NCBI GenBank assembly: GCA_017447815.1
Contig: JAFSMS010000065.1
Span: 1 to 34,726, forward strand
Direction of reading: 5' to 3'
Length of the DNA stretch: 34,726 bases
From: Bacteroidales bacterium
GTDB taxonomy: Bacteria > Bacteroidota > Bacteroidia > Bacteroidales > UBA932
Both the position numbers and the translations under genes were made by a program. Shown piece after piece: positions 1,691 to 6,949 of this stretch. Under the pieces are notes generated by a model that ran no database searches, was not told where the DNA came from, and saw only the letters and a list, made by a program, of their open reading frames with translations. How positions within the stretch are numbered: position 1 is the stretch's first letter; each line of letters begins with the position of its first letter.

Positions 1691-3076
1691 ATGGCACATG
1701 TAATCATCATGCCCAAACAGGGCCAGTCCGTGGAGAACTGCATTATCTCCGAATTCAAGAAGAAGGTGGGGGACACCGTCAAGGTGGGCGATGTCCTGTT
1801 CGGCTACGAGACCGACAAGGCCACCTTCGAGGAAGAGTCCCAGGTGGAGGGAACCGTCCTGGCCATCTTCTGGGCCGATGGAGACGAGATTCCCGTGCTC
1901 CAGAACGTCATGGTGATAGGAAATCCCGGAGAATCCTTCGAGGAGTTCAAACCTGTCGCTGCGGCTGGTATACCCTCTGAAACCCATCGGCCTTCGGCCT
2001 CGTCCCTCCCACCGGCTGCGCCGGCGGGCCCCTCCCATTCATCCGGACATGGGCGTCCAGAGGTTTCAGTGGGTATACCAGCCTCCGCTGACATTGTTCC
2101 CGATGCTCCTGTGAGTCCCCGTGCCCGTATGCTGGCGGAACAGAAGGGCGTGAATACCGCCCAGGTGGCGGGAAGCGGCCCCGGCGGCCGTATCATTGCC
2201 CGCGATGTGGAAGCCGCCGCCCTGGCGCAGGGACACCTGACGGGGCTGGCGAAAGCCCGTATGGCGGCCGGCGGCTTCGTGTCCCCGGGCTCCGGTTCAG
2301 GCCTTGCGGGTGCCGTGAAAGGCGCCGACCTCAAGGTCTGGAAGCCCAGCCATACCGAAGGCCTCCCCGGCGAGGGAACGGACTATGAGGTGGTCAAACT
2401 CTCCAACATGCGCAAGCTCATCGCGAAGAGCATGTACAATTCGCTGCAGAATTCGGCCCAGCTCACCCATATGCTGGGGGCAGATGCCCGCCAGGTGCAG
2501 GCGCTCCGCAAGAAGGCCAAGAAGGCCCTGGAAGAAGGCCGGCTGGATGTGAACATCACCATCAACGACTTCGTCTGCTATGCGGTAATCCGTGCCCTGC
2601 AGGCATTCCCCAACGTGAACTCGCACTGCCTGGGAGACGCCATGCGCCTGTTCAAGTGCGTGAATCTGGGGCTTGCCGTCGATACGGAACGCGGCCTCAT
2701 GGTTCCTGCGGTGGCCCATGCCGAGGAGATGGACATCGTGACCTTGTCCCGCAGCCTCAAGAAAGTGGCCGACGACAGCAAGAAGGGCAGCATCAACCCG
2801 GATCTCCTGTCGCCGGAAGCCGCCTCCTTCACGGTTTCCAACCTGGGCGGCTTCGGGGTGGAATGGTTCACGCCCATCATCAACCTGCCGCAGAGCGGCA
2901 TCCTGGGCGTAGGGACCATTGTTCCGCGTCCCAAGATGGTGGACGGGGAGTACAGGTTCGTGCCTTACATGGCACTGAGTTTCACCTACGATCACCGGGC
3001 CATTGACGGCGGAGAGGCCACCCGCTTCCTTAAGAAAGTGGCCGAAGAAATTGAAAATCTGGATATAGACTTTTAA
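1691..3076 (+). CDS. 2-oxoacid dehydrogenase E2 (dihydrolipoyl acyltransferase)
   Basis: Core acyltransferase of a pyruvate/2-oxoacid/acetoin dehydrogenase complex; it passes the acyl group from E1 to CoA via a lipoyl arm. Domains in the 461 aa: one lipoyl domain (residues 1-80, with the ETDKA motif and modified Lys43), a linker, a peripheral-subunit-binding domain (about 139-176, SPRARMLAEQKGV...GPGGRIIARDV) and the catalytic domain (about 230-461) ending in the active-site block DHRAIDGG. The linker (about residues 91-131) is encoded by an inserted palindrome-ended element, described separately. The E3 gene follows after 3 nt. Substrate is not visible from sequence; the rhamnose genes upstream suggest a sugar-derived C3 2-oxo compound. 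Confidence 0.92.
   Translation: MAHVIIMPKQGQSVENCIISEFKKKVGDTVKVGDVLFGYETDKATFEEESQVEGTVLAIFWADGDEIPVLQNVMVIGNPGESFEEFKPVAAAGIPSETHRPSASSLPPAAPAGPSHSSGHGRPEVSVGIPASADIVPDAPVSPRARMLAEQKGVNTAQVAGSGPGGRIIARDVEAAALAQGHLTGLAKARMAAGGFVSPGSGSGLAGAVKGADLKVWKPSHTEGLPGEGTDYEVVKLSNMRKLIAKSMYNSLQNSAQLTHMLGADARQVQALRKKAKKALEEGRLDVNITINDFVCYAVIRALQAFPNVNSHCLGDAMRLFKCVNLGLAVDTERGLMVPAVAHAEEMDIVTLSRSLKKVADDSKKGSINPDLLSPEAASFTVSNLGGFGVEWFTPIINLPQSGILGVGTIVPRPKMVDGEYRFVPYMALSFTYDHRAIDGGEATRFLKKVAEEIENLDIDF
1963..2083. repeat. Palindrome-ended insertion element inside the E2 linker
   Basis: Two 22-nt arms, 1963-1984 and 2062-2083, are inverted copies with a single mismatch (21/22); each begins from the outside with GGCTGGTATACCC, which contains the self-complementary GGTATACC (1967-1974 and 2072-2079). 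Between them lie smaller hairpins (CCGGC/GCCGG at 2012-2024, GGAC/GTCC at 2045-2058) and two CCCTCCC direct copies. A CGCTG pentamer flanks both sides (1957-1961 and 2086-2090); if it is a target duplication, the net gain is 129 nt, exactly 43 codons, keeping the frame. The encoded stretch is rich in Pro, Ser, Ala and Gly, as suits a flexible linker. It resembles a REP/MITE-like element; no other copy was seen in the window. Confidence 0.75.
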
Positions 3077-3079
3077 ACT

Positions 3080-4462
3080 ATGTACGATCTTGCAATATTG
3101 GGCGGAGGTCCTGGCGGCTATGTGGCGGCAGGACGCGCCGGCGCGGCGGGACTTTCCGTGGTCCTGTTCGAGAAAAGGGAACTGGGCGGCGTATGCCTCA
3201 ATGAAGGCTGCGTTCCCACGAAGACGCTGCTGTACAGCGCCAAGGTATATGATTACACCAAGCATGCCGACCAGTACGGCGTGGAGGTAGCGGGCTCCGC
3301 CATCGATTTCGGGGCTGTCTTCAAGCGCAAGGAAAAGGTGGTGAAGAAACTCGTGGGCGGCGTGAAGGCCCAGATGAAGGGTGCGAAGGTGGAAGTGGTC
3401 AAGGGCGAAGCCGTGATCACCGGCCGCGGGGCCGATGGAATCACCCTCACCTGCGGAGACGCTTCCTATAACGCCCGTAACCTCCTTATTTGCACGGGCT
3501 CCGAGGCTGCCGTTCCCCCTATCCCCGGTCTTCGTGAAGGTCTGGGCGGCGTGGTGGTCACCAACCGGGAAATCCTGGAACTTGCCGAACAGCCCAAGGA
3601 ACTGGTCGTAATCGGCGGCGGTGTCATCGGCATGGAGTTCGCCAGTTTCTTCCAGTCCATCGGCACCAAGGTGACGGTGGTGGAGATGCTGCCCAAGATC
3701 CTGGGCCCGCTGGACGATGAAATCTCGGCCATGCTGCAGGCGCAGTACGCCAAGAAAGGGGTGGAGTTCCACCTCAGTTGCAAGGTGGTTGCCGTCGAAG
3801 GGAACGAGGTCGTCTATGAGGATCCGGAAGGGAAGACCTGCCGGGCCTATGGTGACAAGATCCTGGTTTCCGTGGGCCGCAGGGCCTCCTTCCAGGGTAT
3901 CGGCCTGGAGAATATCGGCGTAGAACTTGCCCTGAATCCCGCCGGACGGCCCTATGGCATCAAGGTGGATGAGAAGATGCGCACCAATATTCCCGGCGTC
4001 TATGCGGCGGGTGACGTGACGGGCTTCTCCATGCTGGCGCATACCGCCAGCCGTGAGGGCGAGGTGGCCGTGAACACCATCCTGGGCCGCGAGGACCACA
4101 TGCGCTACAATGCCATTCCGGGCGTCGTGTACACCAATCCCGAAGTGGCCGGCGTGGGCCTCACCGAGGCCGAAGCCGCCGGGAAGGGCCTGGATTACAC
4201 GGTTCTCAAACTTCCCATGGCCTATTCCGGCCGCTTTGTCGCCGAGAATGAAAGGGGAGAGGGCCTCTGCAAAGTGATTGTGGGCCGCCAGTATCACGAG
4301 GTGCTGGGTGTCCATATGCTGGGCAATCCCTGCTCCGAAATGATTCACAGCGCCTGCATGGCCATCGAACAGGAGATGACCGTGGAGCAGCTCAAGGAAG
4401 TGGTGTTCCCGCATCCAACCGTATCCGAAATCCTGAAAGAAACCGTTTTTACCTTGAAATAA
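3080..4462 (+). CDS. lpdA: Dihydrolipoyl dehydrogenase (E3)
   Basis: FAD flavoprotein that reoxidises the dihydrolipoyl arm of E2 with NAD+. The 460-aa length is normal. Visible are the N-terminal FAD-binding GGGPGG (residues 8-13), the redox-active disulfide GGVCLNEGCVPTK (Cys39 and Cys44), the NAD-binding VVIGGGVIGMEFA (about 175-188), the second FAD motif YAAGDVTG (about 310) and the catalytic HPTVSE near residue 444. It lies 3 nt after E2 and 3 nt before E1, so the complex is encoded E2-E3-E1, with the usual order reversed. Function as an E3 is secure; being dedicated to this complex is inferred from position. Confidence 0.95.
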   Translation: MYDLAILGGGPGGYVAAGRAGAAGLSVVLFEKRELGGVCLNEGCVPTKTLLYSAKVYDYTKHADQYGVEVAGSAIDFGAVFKRKEKVVKKLVGGVKAQMKGAKVEVVKGEAVITGRGADGITLTCGDASYNARNLLICTGSEAAVPPIPGLREGLGGVVVTNREILELAEQPKELVVIGGGVIGMEFASFFQSIGTKVTVVEMLPKILGPLDDEISAMLQAQYAKKGVEFHLSCKVVAVEGNEVVYEDPEGKTCRAYGDKILVSVGRRASFQGIGLENIGVELALNPAGRPYGIKVDEKMRTNIPGVYAAGDVTGFSMLAHTASREGEVAVNTILGREDHMRYNAIPGVVYTNPEVAGVGLTEAEAAGKGLDYTVLKLPMAYSGRFVAENERGEGLCKVIVGRQYHEVLGVHMLGNPCSEMIHSACMAIEQEMTVEQLKEVVFPHPTVSEILKETVFTLK

Positions 4463-4465
4463 ACC

Positions 4466-6949
4466 ATGCCTAAGTCATTATATATCGACCCCAACGAGGT
4501 GCTCCGTCCCAAGGAGCACGAAATCAAGTTCCCCGAGATTCCCGTCATGCAGTATGCCAAGTCGGTGAAGGAGGAACTCAAGGAAGGTAATTTCACCCCG
4601 GAAGACCTCAAGCACATCTACCGGGACATGGCCGTCATCCGCGAGTTCGAAACCATGCTCAACCTGGTGAAGACGACGGGCGGCTACAACGGCGTTGCCT
4701 ACAACAATCCCGGCCCTGCGCACCTGAGCGCCGGCCAGGAGGCCGCGGCCGTCGGCATGGCGTACAACCTGACGACAGACGACTTTATCTTCGGCAGCCA
4801 CCGGTCCCACGGTGAAATCCTGGCCAAGGGCCTGCGTTCCATCGAGATTCTTCCCGAGGCCGAACTGAAGAAGGTGATGGAGGAGTTCTGGGGCGGTGCC
4901 ACCCTGGCCGTCGCCGGTAAGGACTACAAGGGCGGCAACACCAAGGAACTGGGCATCCGCTTCCTGCTGTACGGTGCCATGGCGGAGATTTTCGCCCGCA
5001 CCACCGGTTTCAACAAGGGCCTCGGCGGCAGCATGCACACGTTCTTCACGCCCTTCGGCATCTATCCCAACAACGCCATCGTTGGCGGCTCCGGCTCCAT
5101 CGCCGTGGGTGCGGCCCTGTTCAAGAAGGTGAACCGCAAGAAGGGCATCGTGGTGGCCAACCTCGGTGACGGTGCCATGGCCCGCGGTCCCGTGCTGGAA
5201 GGCATGACCTTCGCCTCCATGGACCAGTTCAGAACCTTGTGGGAAGGCGATATGAAGGGCGGACTGCCCATCCTCATCAGTGTGATGGACAACCAGTACG
5301 CCATGGGCGGACAGACCCGCGGCGAGACGATGGGCTACACCTATCCCGCCCGCCTGGGCGCCGGATTCAACCCGGAAGCCTGGCACGCCGAGCGGGTGGA
5401 CGGCTACAATCCGCTGGCCGTCATCGACGCCTTCCGCCGCAAGAAAGCCCTCCTGGAGAAAAAGGAAGGACCGGCCCTCATCGACGTAGTGACCTACCGC
5501 TACAGCGGTCACTCTCCGTCCGACCAGTCCAGTTACCGCACCAAGGAGGAGATGGAAGCCTGGCAGGCCGAAGACTGCATCGTCGGATATGGCCGCAAAC
5601 TGGTGGAAGCCGGCGTCGCCACCCAGGAGGAACTGGACGCTATCCAGGCCTATGTGAAGGACGTCATCTTCGAGATGTACAAACTGGCCATCGACGAAAC
5701 GCTCTCTCCCCGCATGGACCTCGTGAAGGACAACGAGTTGCTGGGTGACATGATGTTCTCCAACAGCAGCGTGGACTCCCTCGGAGACGCCACTCCGGAG
5801 GTGAACCATCCCATGGAGGAGAACCCGCGGGTGAAGCAGATTGCCGGCAAGACGCGCTTCTACCTGGACAAGGATGGCAAACCCGTGAGTTCCATGAAGA
5901 TGTATAATTTCAGGGACGGTGTGTTCGAGGCCATCGTGGACCGTTTCTACAAGGACTCCACCCTGATCGCCTACGGTGAGGAAAATCGTGAATGGGGCGG
6001 CGCTTTCGCCGTGTACCGCGGTCTCACGGAGGCGCTTCCGTACCATCGCCTGTTCAACAGTCCCATCGCGGAGGCGGCCATCATCGGCACGGCCATCGGT
6101 TATGCCATGTGCGGCGGCCGCGTGATTCCGGAAATCATGTACTGCGACTTCCTGGGCTGCTGCGGTGACGAAATCTTCAACCAACTGCCCAAGTGGCAGG
6201 CCATGAGCGGCAATATCCTCAAGATGCCGGTGGTGGTGCGCGTTTCCGTCGGCTCCAAGTACGGTGCCCAGCACAGCCAGGACTGGACGTCCCTGTGCAC
6301 GCACATCCCGGGCCTCAAGGTGGTGTTCCCGGTGACGCCGTACGATGCCAAGGGCCTCATGAACAGCGCCCTGCAGGGAACGGACCCCGTGATATTCTTC
6401 GAGAGCCAGCGCCTCTACGGCGTGGGCGAGCAGTTCCACGAGGGCGGCGTTCCCGAGGGGTACTACGAGATTCCGCTCGGAGAGCCGGATATCAAGCGCG
6501 AAGGAAAGGATGTCACGTTCCTCACCATCGGCGCAACGCTCTACCGTGCGCTCAAGGCGGCCGATGAACTCAAGGAGAAATATGGTCTGGAGGCCGAGGT
6601 GATCGATGCCCGCACGCTGGTCCCGTTCAATTACGACAAGGTGATCGCTTCCGTCAAGAAGACCGGACGCATCATCATCGCCGGCGACGCATCGGCCCGT
6701 GGCAGTTACCTGAACGACCTGGCCGCCAATATCACTGAACTGTGCTTCGATTACCTGGATGCCGCTCCCGTGGTGCTGGGTTCCCGTAACTGGATCACCC
6801 CTTGCCACGAACTGGAGGAGGCGTTCTTCCCGCAGCCTGCCTGGTTCCTGGATGCCATTCACGAGAAGATGATGCCGCTGCCGGGTTATGTTCCCGTGAG
6901 CAACCAGACCCCGGCTCAGCAGATTCTCCGGGCCAAGAAAGGAGTGTAA
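4466..6949 (+). CDS. 2-oxoacid dehydrogenase E1, fused alpha and beta subunits
   Basis: Thiamine-diphosphate enzyme that decarboxylates a 2-oxoacid (or cleaves an acetoin-like ketol) and loads the E2 lipoyl arm. It fuses the alpha chain (residues 1 to about 450) to the beta chain (about 490-827). Alpha landmarks: GSHRSHGEILAKG (about 110), GLGGSMH, the ThDP motif starting GDGAMARG (about 234) and ending DNQYAM (about 274), and the phosphorylation-loop-like YRYSGHSPSDQSSYRT. Beta landmarks: GEENREWGGAF (about 504), FNSPIAEAAIIGTAIGYA, and a transketolase-C type end (VIDARTLVPFNYDKV). It is longer than most fused E1 proteins known to me, because of an extra segment of about 45 residues near 120-165 and an insert inside the ThDP motif. 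Substrate unknown. Confidence 0.9.
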   Translation: MPKSLYIDPNEVLRPKEHEIKFPEIPVMQYAKSVKEELKEGNFTPEDLKHIYRDMAVIREFETMLNLVKTTGGYNGVAYNNPGPAHLSAGQEAAAVGMAYNLTTDDFIFGSHRSHGEILAKGLRSIEILPEAELKKVMEEFWGGATLAVAGKDYKGGNTKELGIRFLLYGAMAEIFARTTGFNKGLGGSMHTFFTPFGIYPNNAIVGGSGSIAVGAALFKKVNRKKGIVVANLGDGAMARGPVLEGMTFASMDQFRTLWEGDMKGGLPILISVMDNQYAMGGQTRGETMGYTYPARLGAGFNPEAWHAERVDGYNPLAVIDAFRRKKALLEKKEGPALIDVVTYRYSGHSPSDQSSYRTKEEMEAWQAEDCIVGYGRKLVEAGVATQEELDAIQAYVKDVIFEMYKLAIDETLSPRMDLVKDNELLGDMMFSNSSVDSLGDATPEVNHPMEENPRVKQIAGKTRFYLDKDGKPVSSMKMYNFRDGVFEAIVDRFYKDSTLIAYGEENREWGGAFAVYRGLTEALPYHRLFNSPIAEAAIIGTAIGYAMCGGRVIPEIMYCDFLGCCGDEIFNQLPKWQAMSGNILKMPVVVRVSVGSKYGAQHSQDWTSLCTHIPGLKVVFPVTPYDAKGLMNSALQGTDPVIFFESQRLYGVGEQFHEGGVPEGYYEIPLGEPDIKREGKDVTFLTIGATLYRALKAADELKEKYGLEAEVIDARTLVPFNYDKVIASVKKTGRIIIAGDASARGSYLNDLAANITELCFDYLDAAPVVLGSRNWITPCHELEEAFFPQPAWFLDAIHEKMMPLPGYVPVSNQTPAQQILRAKKGV

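Follow-up and report, generated by a model that had tools for sequence, protein, structure and literature searches.

A palindromic insert in an E2 linker belongs to a family with a conserved fold that is probably mobile within one genus of Bacteroidales

Why does the linker of a 2-oxoacid dehydrogenase subunit contain a long palindrome, and does that palindrome belong to this gene alone or to something that moves? The locus lies in a 34,726-nt contig of a Bacteroidales bacterium (JAFSMS010000065.1), analysed over its whole length and called the window below. The reading frame and domain matches at 1691..3076 (plus strand) identify the gene for the E2 acyltransferase, which neighbours genes for an E3-like flavoprotein (3080-4462, plus strand) and a fused E1 (4466-6949, plus strand). 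The lipoyl domain of E2 spans residues 4-76, the E3-binding domain 141-174 and the catalytic domain 231-457. Domain matches place the palindrome between the lipoyl and E3-binding domains, where a preliminary description of this DNA had put it, and the frame is open through the whole gene, so the element does code for part of the linker, as had also been proposed. Its arms, 27 nt each, lie at 1958-1984 and 2062-2088, are 89% complementary and stand 77 nt apart; in their inner part (1963-1984 / 2062-2083) 21 of 22 positions match, both arms contain GGTATACC, and hairpins lie between them, all as first described. The palindrome is real and far above chance expectation. It is the sole inverted repeat of at least 16 nt that we found in the window (at most one mismatch, spacer at most 120 nt), compared with a mean of 0.05 per window in 20 Markov windows, and a separate set of 20 Markov windows held none of at least 22 nt. 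Fold z-scores are −5.8 for the plus strand as RNA and −6.3 for the minus strand as DNA, with 0 of 200 shuffles equally good in either case.

The family to which this palindrome belongs is defined by a conserved fold of the minus strand, not by GGTATACC. Ends carrying GGTATACC had been suggested as the family signature, an idea we abandoned: a 22-nt arm pattern with up to three mismatches matched 10 of 200 genomes and its backwards control 16 of 200. The genome-wide search for arms and core proposed alongside it did recover copies of the core, with arm-pattern matches no more numerous than in the control. Read on the minus strand, the copies share an outer stem, mostly ending AAACC/GGTTT, and then a hairpin whose loop CCCNN pairs with a downstream NNGGG to form a pseudoknot. 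AGGGG follows, then a CCC..GGG hairpin that is very variable inside (and has a different outer sequence in copies of the type found in two same-genus genomes, G033 and G017), then AGGG and a last hairpin, whose loop is, in a simple parse, a GNA triloop in 49 of 62 copies.

The window copy as a whole occupies 1958..2088 on the minus strand, arms included, and is matched by a covariance model from 2076 to 1970 (81.4 bits; E 2.8e-16 in the window and 2.0e-14 in the whole genome, the window copy itself being among the 30 copies used to build the model). Along the minus strand, the outer stem P1 has its 5' arm at 2062..2088 and its 3' arm at 1958..1984; the inner AAACC (2066-2062) and GGTTT (1984-1980) are common to most aligned copies. 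Hairpin P2, CTGGAC (GCCCAT) GTCCGG, lies at 2043..2060 and is paired in 94.9% of cells over 30 copies. The pseudoknot (2034..2053) joins the P2 loop CCCAT at 2053-2049 with ATGGG at 2038-2034. Hairpin P3, CCCGCCGGC (GCA) GCCGGTGGG, follows at 2008..2028, its outer five pairs backed by the alignment, and hairpin P4, GGCC (GAA) GGCC with a GNA triloop, at 1989..1999. P4 is poorly backed on the alignment used, where it pairs in only 52% of cells; we think that MAFFT misplaces this variable hairpin.

Conservation of the fold was assessed on 80 distinct copies, reduced to 62 at 90% identity, of which 59 entered one alignment and 30 a second, mostly of the window type. The pseudoknot is paired in all 30 copies of the latter, with two-sided changes at two positions, and an exact partner for the loop is present in 58 of 59 parsed copies, with five loop types (3 of the 62 could not be parsed). 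For the paired-cell counts, the pairs were drawn by hand from one copy, L226, on the MAFFT alignment. The whole structure is paired in 86.6% of cells, compared with 39-51% when it is slid by one to three columns and 70.8% after shuffling; cells with two-sided changes number 189 (64.5 shuffled), and the covariation score is 0.420 (0.157 shuffled). One of these controls ignores the relatedness of the copies and the other favours a structure drawn from one copy, but two-sided changes occur in all 14 outer-stem pairs, which makes either effect unlikely as the sole cause. Strong covariation, pseudoknot included, speaks for a structured RNA element that acts in the transcript, for example on mRNA stability or translation, whose fold is kept for that function and whose presence in genes would be selected. 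Against such an RNA role, copies lie in unrelated genes or between genes, and no Rfam match to them was found: among 4227 families the window gave, at the gathering threshold, only its tmRNA gene (RF00023; 21812-22210, minus strand) and so none for the element, and five other loci with copies gave no match at E ≤1.

How widely is this fold distributed? The covariance model finds it (E ≤0.01) in 106 of 121 genomes of the same genus and in 1 of 79 others of the order, with 20 candidates scored per genome, so that counts of 20 are lower bounds. The genus is probably Candidatus Cryptobacteroides, a name we infer from three so-named rumen and hindgut MAGs among the named E2 relatives. The sole genome outside the genus with matches, G147, belongs to another family of the order and has two (best E 3.7e-9); these could reflect transfer or an older origin. 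At E ≤1e-5 the core of one E2 copy, L024, has by our count 19 matching places in G033 and 25 in G017, from totals of 24 and 28 matches that include the query's own arms and weak ones; its outer arms are not common to the other places, apart from partial sharing at one. Searching 151 genus genomes with the window core (minus strand) gave matches at E ≤1e-4 in 74, mostly with six candidates scored in each. We regard the family as a mobile, non-autonomous palindromic element, about 120 nt long, that has probably spread within one genus of uncultured gut and rumen Bacteroidales. Its length to the arm ends has a median of 121 nt; 30 of 31 copies measure 99-135 nt, and the other, at a contig end, 319 nt. 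The earlier label of REP-like fails on this size, REPs being 20-40 bp and most with a tag at one end, according to the portion of PMC3733652 consulted.

The first description of a small interspersed palindromic repeat was right in its essentials, as further copies occur in the window genome and in much of the genus. In the window genome (86% complete), the model locates a second strong copy at C111:23785-23890 (E 2e-11), with long arms and outside any long open frame, and an eroded one at C26:34728-34820 (E 0.026), in frame in a gene whose protein resembles TrmB. The eroded copy is backed by a clear one, L322 in genome G081, in apparently the same gene and place. A BLAST search with the element had returned itself and short chance-like matches, and the notion of a single copy in this genome was dropped once the model found the other two; a match at C1:99057 (E 0.125) resembled ordinary coding sequence and was left uncounted. 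We count the presence of only two strong copies and one eroded copy in the window genome against the reading of a mobile element, at least as regards spread within this species. A search for carriers gave no phage record and no support for a phage or plasmid vector; it returned one partial plasmid match in Azospirillum and an exact-pattern match in one viral contig, which the model scores weakly (E 0.05).

The arms behave differently from the core. Among 14 copies in G017, cores are 88% identical on average (at least 81%) whereas arms are 51% identical, compared with 45% for random 22-mers, which indicates a core common to the family and arms that are mostly particular to the locus. Within a copy, the two arms nevertheless match. 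In 25 copies from G033 and G017, each left arm scores 25-48 against its own right arm, compared with a mean of 12.5, a 99th percentile of 22 and a maximum of 38 over 600 cross-locus pairs; all 25 exceed that 99th percentile, and the cross-locus maximum is the score of L066 and L068, a tandem duplication and hence not independent. In the 20 nt beyond the model, 28 of 31 model-placed copies match at the 95th percentile of cross pairs and 24 at the 99th. The same pattern recurs within one gene. Nine of 17 loci of a gene that we take to be TrmH-like, fetched largely for split matches, carry the element by our reading, each with matching arms that differ between species, and two further loci are short empties.

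These arms bear on a rival reading, in which the family is a conventional MITE mobilised by a DDE transposase, with terminal inverted repeats that have drifted apart and an unremarkable fold. Size, palindromic layout and interspersed copies would suit a MITE, as would the few copies that share longer ends like TACCCTCTGAAACC. There is also a slight excess of direct repeats at the ends, at least 4 nt long in 4 of 31 copies compared with 3.9% of cross-locus pairs. The CGCTG copies that the preliminary description had noted at the flanks are indeed present in the window, at 1957-1961 and 2086-2090; as a target duplication they gain little from this weak family-wide excess. Terminal repeats conserved between copies, a feature of MITEs, are not what we found, since the arms differ between G017 copies with cores at least 81% identical and yet match within each copy. 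TA stands at or next to the termini in only 5 of 31 copies, and it is the interior, with its covarying pseudoknot, that is conserved rather than the ends. On this evidence we judge a conventional MITE quite unlikely. On either strand, the letters of a GTAG or CGTC tag occur within 12 nt outside an end in 9 of the 31 copies, as a raw count.

Presence and absence were compared by joining the flanks of five host proteins and searching 29 genomes, the gene names (CYTH-like, IspE-like, ArgD-like, TrmH-like and IspH-like) being our own assignments from the protein sequences. In the CYTH-like gene, the occupied stretch measures 123 nt and the corresponding one 6-18 nt in 14 of 14 relatives; one further locus has 12 nt and another a different insert of 63 nt. 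The IspE-like gene has 144 and 162 nt where occupied compared with 15-39 nt in 11 relatives, and the ArgD-like gene 153 and 168 nt compared with 15 nt in one case, 33 nt in a second, which holds a bare hairpin, and 135 nt of a different insert in a third. The differences contain both arms and the core, and every stretch measured is divisible by three. An intergenic copy of a third genome, G230, has no counterpart in G017, where the flanks are 94-98% identical, or in G033, and the G017 empty allele opposite L249 also lacks flanking bases. Presence and absence are thus indels between species, of which insertion is the simpler reading and deletion a possible one. The bare hairpin, with a 12-bp stem in the G230 ArgD-like gene, had been considered a pre-insertion site; G033 and G017 are both occupied there, so that loss of the core in G230 is likelier. 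We also set aside the idea that the arms are copied from the flank at insertion, because the empty sites inspected hold neither arm, an absence that deletion could also produce; one IspH-like empty, L214, does show something like one arm. Other short inserts, several of them palindromic, occupy TrmH-like and CYTH-like sites in L293, L294, L295, L301 and L303.

Where G017 and G230 carry copies at orthologous sites, three pairs have cores matching at 86/86, 86/86 and 79/82 positions between flanks 89-94% identical; a fourth pair matches at 74/87, and in a fifth one core has an insert of about 80 nt. Identical cores at two of these sites, between flanks that differ by 6-11%, are a further point for an RNA function. 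The core of L239 contains a nested hairpin-rich stretch of about 80 nt that its orthologue L234 lacks. The copy in the IspE-like gene is reversed as a whole in G230 relative to G017. The two cores are reciprocal best matches at 95.3%; their arms too are homologous, and where one arm has changed, its partner shows the matching change. Inversion in place is the best explanation for this pair. A second candidate for a flipped orthologue, L238 and L235, was rejected, the two elements being at different positions and the L235 site being taken up by another repeat.

We asked next how copies sit in genes. Family copies occur in frame in protein genes and also between genes. By our count, 20 of the 25 copies in G033 and G017 lie in frame within open frames of at least 300 codons (two of them a tandem duplication), and 12 of 31 model-placed copies have at least 60 open codons on both sides. 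Relative to the longest spanning frame, orientation is mixed (14:11 in 25 copies); in the 12 deep-coding copies it is 1:11, five of them sharing one gene. In that gene, occupied in five genomes, four copies (L307, L311, L314 and L334) run one way and L335 the other. The minus strand is the more open, with 2.03 compared with 1.23 open frames per copy, which accounts for part of the 1:11 bias.

Orientation separates a folded DNA strand from an RNA role, although not cleanly. That species differ in orientation at a single site counts against a strict function in mRNA and favours a folded strand of DNA; the frequent GNA triloops fit such a strand too, GNA triloops being very stable in DNA. However, mixed orientation as a clean argument for DNA is weakened by the fact that 11 of the 12 deep-coding copies lie one way, and this bias in part speaks against the folded-DNA reading. 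For a transcript-borne element the same bias would be welcome, except that the favoured coding strand is opposite to the strand on which the fold is drawn, that open frames explain part of it, and that orientation is mixed both in the 25 copies and in E2 linkers, where it stands at 13:10. We consider a structured RNA unlikely.

We then returned to the E2 linker itself. L024 (G033) and L026 (G017), both in E2 genes of the same genus, have palindromic insertions in the same linker as the window, and among 80 named E2 loci 23 have a covariance-model match there at E ≤0.1 (13 plus, 10 minus). On a quick E2 tree built without the linker (81 rows), presence requires at least 12 changes and orientation at least 8, with the eroded copy L105 scored as absent. 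The window linker is 54 residues long; the median length is 58 residues where the element is present (45-70, n = 23) and 44 where it is not (40-82, n = 25, including the eroded L105 and the odd L139 and L148, with 4 of 52 left unmeasured). The difference of about 14 residues indicates that the element largely replaced an Ala/Pro-rich linker instead of merely lengthening it. A net insertion of 129 nt, as first proposed, would have made the difference 43 residues, and the aligned E2 linkers do not bear out a simple 43-residue stretch missing from relatives. The window element is now part of the E2 linker, substituting for much of the usual Ala/Pro-rich sequence.

The E2 cores are scattered among cores of other loci (12 changes) on a tree that comes from a short alignment and in which few forks are supported. 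The window core is closest to L108 and L077 and not to the sister species L105-L107, and its right flank, by eye, also resembles that of L108. This resemblance suggests that the window linker was acquired from another species by recombination. Alternatively, the repeat could be static in the host, for example as the binding site of a nucleoid or repair protein, handed down at fixed positions and missing where it was lost. Such a reading would account for the E2 and TrmH-like sites occupied in many species and for eroded remains such as L105 and the 12-bp hairpin in the G230 ArgD-like gene. It would not lead one to expect similar cores at unrelated loci or, as far as the weakly supported tree goes, the scatter of E2 cores among those of other loci, and it strikes us as very improbable.

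For the mobile element that we favour, the observations suggest the following course. The element would spread as a folded single strand, somewhat more probably of DNA than of RNA, and a protein whose gene lies elsewhere would mobilise it. Once inserted, the unit would be flipped, and its arms kept matched, by a polymerase switching templates between them, as the pattern of arms and orientations implies, and genes would retain only open copies of a length divisible by three, in linkers and loops. Template switching is described as homogenising arms and inverting spacers in yeast, in the part of PMC8604942 consulted. It explains the matched arms and the flips, but neither the conserved core nor the spread of the core. 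In a variant that we find possible and hold tentatively, the core alone is the mobile unit, read as a folded single strand; arms are made or acquired at each site and then kept matched and flipped by template switching, and coding linkers are long-lived homes in which cores exchange and invert.

The nearest known behaviour, by analogy, is that of the Rickettsia palindromic elements (RPEs), to which the folded core, locus-specific arms and flipping would add new features. RPEs are described in the sections of PMC2229807 and PMC10969869 consulted as palindromic repeats of 105-146 bp (about 100-150 bp), which occupy unrelated conserved genes in frame as well as intergenic positions. The present copies are of the same size and likewise include several in frame in unrelated genes, with empty orthologues for several of those genes. 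In contrast, the phylum is another one, and the covarying pseudoknot, the locus-specific co-evolving arms and the flipping of the unit are absent from the RPE descriptions consulted. RPE-like elements are also reported for Wolbachia, according to a title in a reference list. Coding palindromes of Nematomorpha mitochondria (PMC6649704, as excerpted) are inverted repeats in coding sequence whose arms evolve together, with template switching proposed; they are perfect, reach 284 bp and lie in organelle genes, unlike the shared, interspersed and structured core here. Yeast genes show the same outcomes, matched arms and an inverted spacer, but there, in the passages of PMC8604942 consulted, spacer inversions made 2 to 5 substitutions, whereas here an element of about 120 nt flips and belongs to a repeat family. 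REP, MITEs, ERIC, BOX and Correia elements resemble the family in being small and non-autonomous, with stable folds and some fusions in frame, but are mainly intergenic by the partial accounts of PMC2229807 and PMC10969869, unlike this family. Among the titles listed, with most subscription papers outside the coverage, none concerned this repeat family in Bacteroidales; a Porphyromonas MITE was listed (PMC4596501).

Protein-coding mobile palindromes are best known from Rickettsia, and a family detected in most species of a gut and rumen genus provides a large set of natural cases in which to study the conversion of short mobile DNA into protein. Covariation in the pseudoknot suggests that a folded strand is what is recognised, and flips at orthologous sites make template switching testable in bacteria. 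In proteins of this genus, annotation can mistake sequence derived from the repeat for native sequence.

Two other repeats came to light in the same loci. One, of about 56 nt or more and 85-100% identical, lies at L248:1637-1692, L233:1637-1692, L235:2364-2419, L073:1393-1448 and L054:922-977; it has 12 matches in the loci, some at the same place in overlapping loci, and is in frame in at least the L073 protein (SGPGRVHPRFAAAEYGLSPAA). The other, about 55-75 nt long, adjoins an element copy in the flank of L064 and recurs at 86-96% identity at nine further places in G017 and G033, including G017:C9:168399, G017:C28:8380, G033:C2:127143 and G033:C1:247657.
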